Below, piece after piece: positions 11,043 to 47,689 of a stretch of 64,000 bases of DNA. The notes under the pieces are model-generated. The model saw only the letters and a list, made by a program, of their open reading frames with translations. It was not told where the DNA came from and made no database searches. Location: contig NZ_JANFPI010000002.1 in NCBI RefSeq assembly GCF_026552795.1, positions 558,001 to 622,000 on the forward strand. The letters run 5' to 3'. A program made the position numbers and the translations under genes. How positions within the stretch are numbered: the first letter of the stretch is position 1; each line of letters begins with the position of its first letter. Origin of the DNA: Ectorhizobium quercum (GTDB lineage Bacteria > Pseudomonadota > Alphaproteobacteria > Rhizobiales > Rhizobiaceae).

Positions 11043-11109
11043 GCGTTGAGGGCCGTATGAAACGCAAGGGATGACAATCGCCCCGGCCTCTGCGATAAAG
11101 GCTTCGTTG

Positions 11110-45762: not shown

Positions 45763-46701
45763 TCAGCGCAGCTCGACAGCAATCTCCTCGACGGGCGGAA
45801 CCGTTTCGATCAGTTCGTTGTCCTTGAGAAACGCGCCGAAGCGGGCATAGCGTTCATGATCGAGTGCGGCGGGACGCTTGGCGAAGCGCGGCAGCGTATC
45901 CTTCCACGCCTGCCGGTTCAGGGCGTCGTCGAGGTTCGGATAGGCCTTGATGAACATTTCCCACGCCTCTTCCGGATGATTGGTCAGGAAGATCGCGCCT
46001 TGCTCGACCGCCGCGAGGAAGCGTTTCAGGCGATTGTCCTCCAGAAGCTCGGGACGGGTGATGTAGATCAGTTCGTCATAGACCGGAACGCCGTTTTCCT
46101 CCGGATAGAAGGACAGCGCCTGATGCCCCTCCAGCATCATCTGGGTGTGCTCGAAATTGCGGAAGCCGCCGACCGTCGCATCCACCTGGCCGGAAATCAG
46201 CGCTGGGGTCAGGGCGAAATTGACGTTGATGAGTTCGATATTGTCCATCCTCAGCCCGGCATTTTCCAGCATGCTCCCGAGCATGACCTGCTCGAACCCG
46301 GCGACGGAAAAGCCGACCTTCCTGCCGTCCAGGTCCTCCAGCGCCTTGATCGGCCCGTCGGCCAGCACCGTCACGGAATTGAGCGGCGTTTCGACCAGCG
46401 TGCCGAAGCGCACCAGCTTCACGCCGGCGGCATGGTCCAGATACAGGTTCGGCTGGTAGTGGATGCCGATCTCCACCTGACCGGAGGCAACGGCGCGCGG
46501 CACGAGGGACGGATCGGCCGGCGGCAGAAGCTCGACGTCGAGGCCCGCCTTCTCGAACAGGCCGCGCTCCTTCGCCACGACCAGCGGCGCATGGTCGGGA
46601 TTGACGAACCACTCGAGCAGGACGGTCAGCTTGTCGGCGGCCTGCGCCGCGGGGCCGGTGGCGAGGCAGAAGGCCAGCGCCAGTGCAATGGGTCGAAACA
46701 T
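45763..46701 (-). CDS. thiY: Thiamine-pyrimidine-precursor ABC solute-binding protein
   Basis: 312 residues. Signal peptide MFRPIALALAFCLATGPAAQA, then the NMT1/THI5-like fold: TVLLEWFVNPDHAPLVVAKE, PRAVASGQVEIGIHYQPNL, VGGFRNFEHTQM. ThiY binds formylaminopyrimidine, a thiamine breakdown product used for salvage. An AAAGGAGG ribosome site precedes its ATG, 28 bases after thiX. Transcribed behind a TPP riboswitch, which supports the thiamine link. Confidence 0.88.
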   Translation of the reverse strand: MFRPIALALAFCLATGPAAQAADKLTVLLEWFVNPDHAPLVVAKERGLFEKAGLDVELLPPADPSLVPRAVASGQVEIGIHYQPNLYLDHAAGVKLVRFGTLVETPLNSVTVLADGPIKALEDLDGRKVGFSVAGFEQVMLGSMLENAGLRMDNIELINVNFALTPALISGQVDATVGGFRNFEHTQMMLEGHQALSFYPEENGVPVYDELIYITRPELLEDNRLKRFLAAVEQGAIFLTNHPEEAWEMFIKAYPNLDDALNRQAWKDTLPRFAKRPAALDHERYARFGAFLKDNELIETVPPVEEIAVELR

Positions 46702-46729: not shown

Positions 46730-47473
46730 TCAGGCGGCGGGCGCCCAGCGGATGAAAAAGGGGGCTGCGCGGTTCACGGCGGCGCGCAGGAAAATGGCTT
46801 CGGCAGCAAGAATCGCCATCGCGGCGAAGACGGTACCGGTCTGCATGCGGGCATTGGCCTCGACCATCACGTAGCCAAGGCCGGCCGAGGCGCCGACCCA
46901 CTCGCCGACAACCGCGCCGAGCGGCGCCAGCGGCGCGGCGACGCGCAGGCCGGAAAACAGCGCCGGCAAGGCGAGCGGAATGCGGATGTGGCGCAGCGCC
47001 TGCCAGCGGTTCGCCTCGGTGAGCGCGGCCGCGTCGAGAATGTCCTGATGAATGTTGCGAAGGCCGTCCGCAAAGGCCGAGGCCACCGGAAAGAAGATGA
47101 TGATCGTCGTCATCACCACCTTGGAGGCCATGCCGAAGCCGAACCAGAGCACGAGAAGCGGCGCGATGACGAAGACCGGAAAGCTTTGCAGCATCACCAC
47201 CGCCGGCCAGACGAGCCGTTCCACTTTCGGCAGGGCCGTGACGCCGATGGCGGTAATGACCCCGAGCATCGTCCCCGCGGCGAAACCGGCGAGGATTTCC
47301 GACAGCGTGATCAGTGCATGGGTGGCCAGGAAGGACGGCCGCGAGAGGAAGGCCTCGGCCACCGCCTGTGGCGCCGGCAGGATATAGCGCGGCGGCGTAA
47401 ACAGCCACACCACGACCTGCCAGAGGCCGATCAGGAAAACAGCATTGCGGAAAAACGCGCCGAGCGTTCGCAT
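46730..47473 (-). CDS. thiX: Thiamine-precursor ABC permease
   Basis: 247 residues with about six membrane helices and a BPD_transp_1 EAA loop (DAAALTEANRWQALRHIRIP). N-terminus MRTLGAFFRNAVFLIGLWQV, then FTPPRYILPAPQAVAEAF, as in ThiX/SsuC permeases. The ATG at 47473 has no ribosome site; a 14-codon leader ORF in the same frame ends in TGA two codons before it. The partner ATPase gene (thiZ) is not present here. Confidence 0.88.
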   Translation of the reverse strand: MRTLGAFFRNAVFLIGLWQVVVWLFTPPRYILPAPQAVAEAFLSRPSFLATHALITLSEILAGFAAGTMLGVITAIGVTALPKVERLVWPAVVMLQSFPVFVIAPLLVLWFGFGMASKVVMTTIIIFFPVASAFADGLRNIHQDILDAAALTEANRWQALRHIRIPLALPALFSGLRVAAPLAPLGAVVGEWVGASAGLGYVMVEANARMQTGTVFAAMAILAAEAIFLRAAVNRAAPFFIRWAPAA

Positions 47474-47476
47474 GAC

Positions 47477-47521
47477 TCAGCGCGCCGAGGAGTGGGGCGA
47501 AGGACGAGTGACGGACGACAT
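47477..47521 (-). CDS. 14-codon leader ORF in frame with thiX
   Basis: Reads MSSVTRPSPHSSAR then TGA, GTC and the thiX ATG, all in one frame. It has a good ribosome site (AGGGAG, 9 bases before the ATG at 47521), whereas thiX has none. The ribosome site is the target of a riboswitch-linked hairpin (47527-47555). Either thiX is translated by reinitiation after this leader, or the TGA is a nonsense change (for example from TGG) in a longer thiX. Confidence 0.5.
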   Translation of the reverse strand: MSSVTRPSPHSSAR

Positions 47522-47526
47522 GCGGC

Positions 47527-47555
47527 GATCTCCCTGCAACAAGGCCACGGAGATC
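47527..47555 (-). promoter_or_regulatory. Ribosome-site sequestering hairpin of the thiX riboswitch
   Basis: On the minus strand GATCTCC (47549-47555) is exactly complementary to GGAGATC (47527-47533), loop 15 bases. The right arm is the ribosome site of the leader ORF. It mirrors the arrangement before thiM and points to translational control. Confidence 0.6.
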
Positions 47556-47603
47556 CAGGACGAGCGAAGAAGAGGGAAAACCCGCGGGAAGGCGAGCCGC
47601 TTT

Positions 47604-47689
47604 TTCCGTTCCTACGCCGGTATGACCCGGATCAGGTTCAAGGGTCCGGCTCACCGCCATCTCAGCACCGTTCGGTGCTCCCCTCGGAA
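47604..47689 (-). ncRNA. TPP riboswitch (thi box) upstream of thiX-thiY
   Basis: On the minus strand the thi-box pieces occur in order: GGGGAGCACCG, GGTGCTGAGATGG, GACCCTTGAACCTGAT and CCGGGTCATACCGGCGTAGG. P1 can form between CGGAA (47685-47689 on plus) and TTCCG (47604-47608). The 254 bases beyond it towards serA (47690-47943) show no convincing gene and hold both promoters. Confidence 0.94.

Follow-up and report, generated by a model that had tools for sequence, protein, structure and literature searches.

A short leader reading frame as a candidate relay between a TPP riboswitch and thiX in rhizobia

In the usual description, a bacterial TPP riboswitch either ends transcription or masks the ribosome site of the gene that it regulates (PMC3738593). 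The thiX locus of Ectorhizobium quercum raises the question of how such a switch might reach a gene when the ribosome site predicted to be masked belongs to another reading frame. Within the window (the whole 64,000-nucleotide (nt) stretch analyzed, positions 558,001 to 622,000 of contig NZ_JANFPI010000002.1), the minus strand carries, in order, a TPP aptamer, a moderately pyrimidine-rich stretch, a predicted hairpin that holds a Shine-Dalgarno (SD) sequence, a 14-codon open reading frame (ORF), and thiX. Its parts are as follows.

47694-47592, minus strand: TPP riboswitch aptamer (RF00059; cmscan 76.1 bits, E 3.3e-13, full length)
47626..47633, minus strand: aptamer segment GATCCGGG, proposed partner of the switching arm without TPP (helix with 47559-47552)
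47549..47559, minus strand: switching arm CCTGGATCTCC, predicted to pair through CCTGGATC with the aptamer and through GATCTCC with the SD
47527..47534, minus strand: GGGAGATC, leader ORF SD and 3' arm of the hairpin (from the predicted fold and the sequence)
47477..47521, minus strand: leader ORF, 14 codons plus TGA (from the sequence; the place of the stop is kept in relatives)
46730..47473, minus strand: thiX, ABC transporter permease without an SD of its own (PF00528, BPD_transp_1, E 6.3e-29)
45763..46701, minus strand: thiY, NMT1/THI5-like substrate-binding protein, the gene after thiX (PF09084, E 1.5e-67)

The aptamer lies well above the RF00059 gathering score of 54.3 bits, which places it among TPP riboswitches in sequence and structure. 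The leader encodes the peptide MSSVTRPSPHSSAR, from an ATG at 47521-47519 to a TGA at 47479-47477, and its SD, GGGAG at 47534-47530, falls inside the predicted hairpin GGATCTCC/GGGAGATC. After the TGA come GTC and the thiX ATG (47473-47471), which opens an ORF of 247 amino acids in the same frame as the leader. An earlier note on this DNA had described a TPP riboswitch followed by a 14-codon leader that ends in TGA just before thiX and in its frame, and this description is confirmed. The names thiX and thiY derive from that note and from the Pfam families, all NCBIfam models having scored below cut-off.

Several features of the surroundings were also recorded. Those ORFs beyond thiY that look like genes run in the opposite direction in the window, and no ABC ATPase (thiZ) was seen by eye beside thiXY there; in three relatives (L003, L010, and L019), ORFs behind thiXY resemble thiM and thiE by eye. 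Between the aptamer and the SD hairpin, a pyrimidine tract (47561-47580; consensus TTCTCTTCTCCGC) recurs in the alignment of relatives and could be a site for Rho or S1. A simple consensus scan for intrinsic terminators between 47380 and 47900 found 0, shuffled sequences averaging 0.6, and so gave no indication of a transcriptional platform.

The two starts differ in their SD sequences. The duplex energy of the leader SD is about -7.7 kcal/mol (-8.2 when another calculation window is used) and that of thiX is -1.7 kcal/mol. Because 642 internal ATGs of thiX genes have a median SD energy of -1.95 kcal/mol, thiX in the window has no SD above background. These energies and the predicted fold bear out the earlier view that the hairpin covers the ribosome site of the leader and that thiX lacks one.

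The comparison with relatives drew on 80 named genome loci and on whole-genome searches of relatives and the family, yielding 172 loci: 11 duplicates, 103 with a TPP aptamer, and 58 without one under a strict regular expression, the last number being an upper bound in that some of these loci (e.g., L086) resemble TPP aptamers. All 20 of the pattern-found aptamers that were run against Rfam, out of the 103, exceeded the gathering score. The leader was taken as the first strong-SD start downstream of the aptamer, with ATG preferred and stops disregarded, a rule that returned 68 upstream ORFs (uORFs), 7 starts whose frame runs on into thiX, and nothing suitable in 28 loci. Curation changed the 68 uORFs to 65 by setting aside L031, L129, L130, L131, L135, L139, and L096 and by adding L036, L154, L159, and L160 by eye.

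In 64 of the 65 curated loci, the leader-frame stop lies beside the thiX start; the two shifted frames score 2 and 11, and a Markov model gives an expectation of 11.0. The uncurated set gives the same picture, with 66 of 68 leader stops falling within a 35-nt stretch around the thiX start (2 and 8 in the shifted frames); this stretch was set after the data had been seen, and the shifted frames were scored on the same stretch. When loci are clustered at 80% ThiX identity, 24 of 25 clusters stop beside the thiX start, against 1 and 5 in the shifted frames. Gaps between the leader stop and the first in-frame start behind it range from -4 to 17 nt, with a mode of 10 nt (16 of 65 loci) and 58 of 65 at 2 to 12 nt, a measure that takes this first start as that of thiX and is therefore biased toward small gaps; the counts of 64/65 and 66/68 avoid this bias, being anchored on a codon conserved in thiX. 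The leaders thus combine an SD of their own with a stop a few nucleotides from the next start, as is typical of termination-reinitiation leaders, and the modal gap is close to the 10- to 11-bp peak that was read as pointing to reinitiation in a survey of bacterial leader genes (PMC4833913). The leader SD is stronger than that of thiX in 63 of 65 loci. In 44 of 65, the window among them, the thiX SD is weaker than -4 kcal/mol, leaving the downstream gene without a good SD; the other 21 of 65 do have a thiX SD, of -4 kcal/mol or better, which leaves room for looser coupling at some loci.

The place of the stop is conserved, and the frame in which it is reached is not. All three phases of leader relative to thiX occur (26, 21, and 18 of the 65 loci), the leader being in frame with thiX in 21 loci, including the window, and out of frame in 44. 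Mixed phases are found within 5 of the 25 clusters, one of which contains both the window and its nearest relative, Allorhizobium borbori (L001 and L082, which are one locus; ThiX identity, 87%). A. borbori shares the aptamer, the SD, and the leader length of 14 codons, but its peptide, MPLTVCRPFCVPVA, is quite unlike that of the window, and its TGA stands 2 nt ahead of the thiX ATG, putting the leader in a different frame from thiX.

Nor is there a sign that the peptide itself has a function. Leader pN/pS was 1.16 in the Agrobacterium-like group (13 loci), 1.06 in genus g135 (6 loci), 0.99 in the Pseudorhizobium-like group (3 loci), and 2.11 in Ensifer (4 loci); the corresponding values for thiX were 0.14, 0.12, 0.32, and 0.11. 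Reading the leader DNA one base off gave 0.92, 0.72, 0.70, and 0.52, and because these off-frame values (0.52 to 0.92) lie below those of the true frame (0.99 to 2.11), the leader frame is kept no better than a wrong one. Groups of two sequences carry little weight, their leader pN/pS being scattered from 0.41 to 3.27 with one value undefined, and the pair L088/L126, whose thiX pN/pS of 1.09 probably reflects misalignment at the anchor, was given none. Peptides vary between clades, and neither the conserved peptide nor the run of regulatory codons characteristic of an attenuation-type leader was found. A functional leader peptide is therefore unsupported by the four larger clades, which show no purifying selection on it, and the peptide seems not to matter. 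The earlier expectation that a conserved stop would reveal a leader peptide held for the position of the stop and failed for the peptide. The best explanation of these patterns is that selection keeps the site of termination close to the thiX start, irrespective of frame, and that the peptide is a by-product.

Whether a switch could open and close the leader SD was addressed in 35 loci, one per cluster at 90% ThiX identity with L098 left out. The helix between GATCCGGG and CCTGGATC is paired in 98.9% of 280 cells across the 35 aligned loci, and the SD helix is paired in 92.7% of 245 cells. The last bases of CCTGGATC serve both helices, so that pairing with the aptamer competes with the anti-SD arm, and in 33 of 35 loci the two pairings have 4 nt or more in common. 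In 31 of 35 loci, the aptamer-arm helix scores better than 95 or more of 100 shuffles (91 in the window; 71 in A. borbori, where the best aptamer pairing lies elsewhere), and the SD hairpin reaches that level in just 9 of 35 (90 in the window). Covariation was sought as proof of both helices and not found, compensatory changes in either helix being no more frequent than in shuffles among the 35 loci, perhaps because the same bases have several partners. In folding models, the SD is more open with the aptamer-arm helix forced than with four P1 pairs forced in 35 of 35 loci (median openness, 0.43 versus 0.00). The unconstrained fold is closed, with a median openness of 0.00, so the ON state would need folding during transcription. 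The models thus predict a masked leader SD and two mutually exclusive helices, and an exchange of these helices between OFF and ON states is plausible.

Taken with the placement of the stops, this arrangement makes it quite probable that the TPP switch acts on the leader and that the leader relays its state to thiX by termination and reinitiation, the option in the earlier note that the comparison favors. With TPP bound, the GATCTCC portion of the arm would pair with the leader SD and the leader would go untranslated. In the absence of TPP, GATCCGGG would pair with CCTGGATC and free the SD; ribosomes would then translate the 14 codons, terminate at the TGA, 3 nt short of the thiX ATG, and reinitiate, and thiY, lying behind thiX, would come under the same decision. 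It is the switching between helices, the translation of the leader, and the reinitiation at thiX that we infer.

Two readings of the TGA as a feature of ThiX itself, both raised in the earlier note, are decided by the reading frame. The shared frame in the window would suit a recent nonsense change in which a TGG of an N-terminal ThiX extension became TGA and the ATG that follows took over as the start, as would the distant lineage L106, in which a masked SD opens an in-frame thiX extension. A. borbori, however, has its own TGA-ended 14-codon leader in a different frame, 64 of 65 loci stop at this place, and 44 of the 65 have the leader out of frame, which contradicts the nonsense reading and leaves it next to no probability. 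A sequencing error at 47477-47479, which the note had also entertained, cannot account for same-place stops in other genomes. Readthrough of the stop, giving a long and a short ThiX, could occur in the 21 loci with a common frame; as a general mechanism it is rejected because A. borbori, and 44 of 65 loci in all, have the leader and thiX in separate frames, and the type of stop codon also varies (33 TGA, 8 TAG, and 2 TAA in 43 loci). Since the A. borbori stop occupies the same place in another frame, the site appears to be neither a ThiX nonsense mutation nor a readthrough site, and readthrough, very improbable as the explanation, would at most yield a minor product in this genome.

The remaining alternatives accept the riboswitch and change what the leader does. 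By analogy with metA of Sinorhizobium meliloti, a serious rival holds that the SD controlled by the riboswitch loads or parks ribosomes that then start at thiX, with the leader untranslated; in this precedent from the same family, governed by a SAM-II riboswitch, the SD was needed and expression was kept when AUG1 was changed to UAG (PMC9373788). Stops in an unread leader frame should drift, however, and since 64 of 65 are found next to the thiX start where about 11 would be expected, the frame would seem to be read, leaving this account unlikely. Leader translation might instead mainly protect the RNA against decay or against termination by Rho, thiX starting independently. Consistent with this are the moderately pyrimidine-rich stretch between the aptamer and the SD (median 0.62, range 0.49 to 0.68), an RNA of about 150 nt from the TPP riboswitch upstream of Atu3286, which may be thiX, in Agrobacterium tumefaciens C58 (PMC3738593), and the Rho-linked translational platform with a uORF reported for the Mycobacterium tuberculosis Mbox (PMC12810186). 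By itself, such protection requires no stop close to thiX and leaves the weak thiX SD unexplained; it is decidedly unlikely as the sole route, although it may act in addition to reinitiation.

How widely the proposed reinitiation relay extends was examined in a midpoint-rooted ThiX tree of the 103 aptamer loci. One group of 64 loci (support 100/98) includes 58 of the 65 leader loci, and its other six members, one of them named Martelella, are Martelella-like and stand beside the lineage of the window. The idea that the Martelella-like clade had lost its leader was considered and dropped, since five of the six (L031, L129, L130, L131, and L135) have an ORF of 22 to 25 codons whose TGA overlaps the thiX TTG as TTGA. 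In those five, the SD (GGAG) lies within the 3' strand of aptamer helix P1, and the arrangement looks like a different relay. In distant lineages, some thiX starts are led directly by the switch or carry an in-frame extension (e.g., L106). Of 394 genomes sampled from the family, 88 have ThiX of this kind (E below 1e-60), and the relay would thus be a trait of the carriers of the gene and not of the family at large.

Within the window genome, three other TPP riboswitches (at 11104 in the window, L114, and L115) lead straight into genes with SDs, which by eye resemble thiM, thiB, and tenA. A fourth (L112, minus strand; aptamer at about 1601-1501) precedes a gene that is thiO-like by eye. Between its aptamer and the gene lies a 22-codon ORF (1404-1336) that ends TGA-GCC-ATG, the next start being at 1332-1330, and the thiO-like gene, unlike thiX in the window, has a strong SD. 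In a relative (G018), the parts matching L112 are about 860 bp apart, so this ORF may be a deletion scar. The three plasmid-homologue stretches that were opened held no annotated features.

It is possible, though we put it forward only tentatively, that a mini-ORF free of constraint on frame and sequence has been selected across the large rhizobial thiX clade as an adapter and was rebuilt in the Martelella-like sister lineage. If so, the adapter would let a conserved TPP switch drive thiX while leaving the thiX start untouched, and a broadly conserved natural riboswitch would have as its output the place where ribosomes stop and not the start of a protein. In dozens of species, the start predicted to be masked lies one step away from the regulated gene, and inspection of the thiX start alone misses the likely control point. 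Changes of phase between close relatives offer a natural argument for termination-reinitiation that is independent of reporters, and the arrangement suggests a relay design in which the start of the regulated gene is kept free of the switch.

Control of a uORF by TPP has a eukaryotic counterpart. In the fungal NMT1 riboswitch, TPP sensing decides whether uORFs are translated, as proposed here, but the fungal system acts through splicing and its uORFs repress. Among bacteria, the matches listed from the open-licence literature, judged by title and the start of the abstract, included none on a leader ORF that separates thiX from a TPP riboswitch. The main text of a review of translational coupling does not mention riboswitches (PMC12548453), and that of a study of the S. 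meliloti small proteome does not mention a TPP leader (PMC10117765). The medium used for ribosome profiling in the latter contained 10 mg of thiamine per litre (PMC10117765), so the leader would be off.

The proposed relay is most readily compared with that of the M. tuberculosis B12 riboswitch, uPPE2, and ppe2 (PMC11260477). There, as is proposed here, the riboswitch masks the SD of a uORF, and ppe2, which lacks an SD, depends on translation of the uORF, mainly through termination-reinitiation. The ligand in that system is B12 and stop and start overlap as AUGA, whereas the rhizobial loci have a TPP aptamer and gaps of mostly 2 to 12 nt; the ppe2 coupling was shown by experiment, that of thiX is argued from sequence comparison. 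In Escherichia coli, CsrA likewise blocks a short leader ORF to which iraD is translationally coupled (PMC5574718), but the regulator is a protein, no riboswitch is involved, and the stop of the ORF shares bases with the iraD start codon. The S. meliloti metA SAM-II riboswitch, also from the Rhizobiaceae, provides a needed SD with the start codon that is used lying 74 nt downstream (PMC9373788); it differs in that AUG1 is in frame with AUG2 and dispensable, and the portion of that paper covered here reports no leader stop at the start site. The M. tuberculosis Mbox upstream of rv1805A also controls a small upstream ORF via a translational platform, but that uORF is described as highly conserved, the reported outcome is Rho-dependent termination, and the signal is Mg2+ and not TPP (PMC12810186). 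The type of relay is therefore already known, and the TPP-thiX relay appears to be a conserved variant of it that is well supported by comparison.
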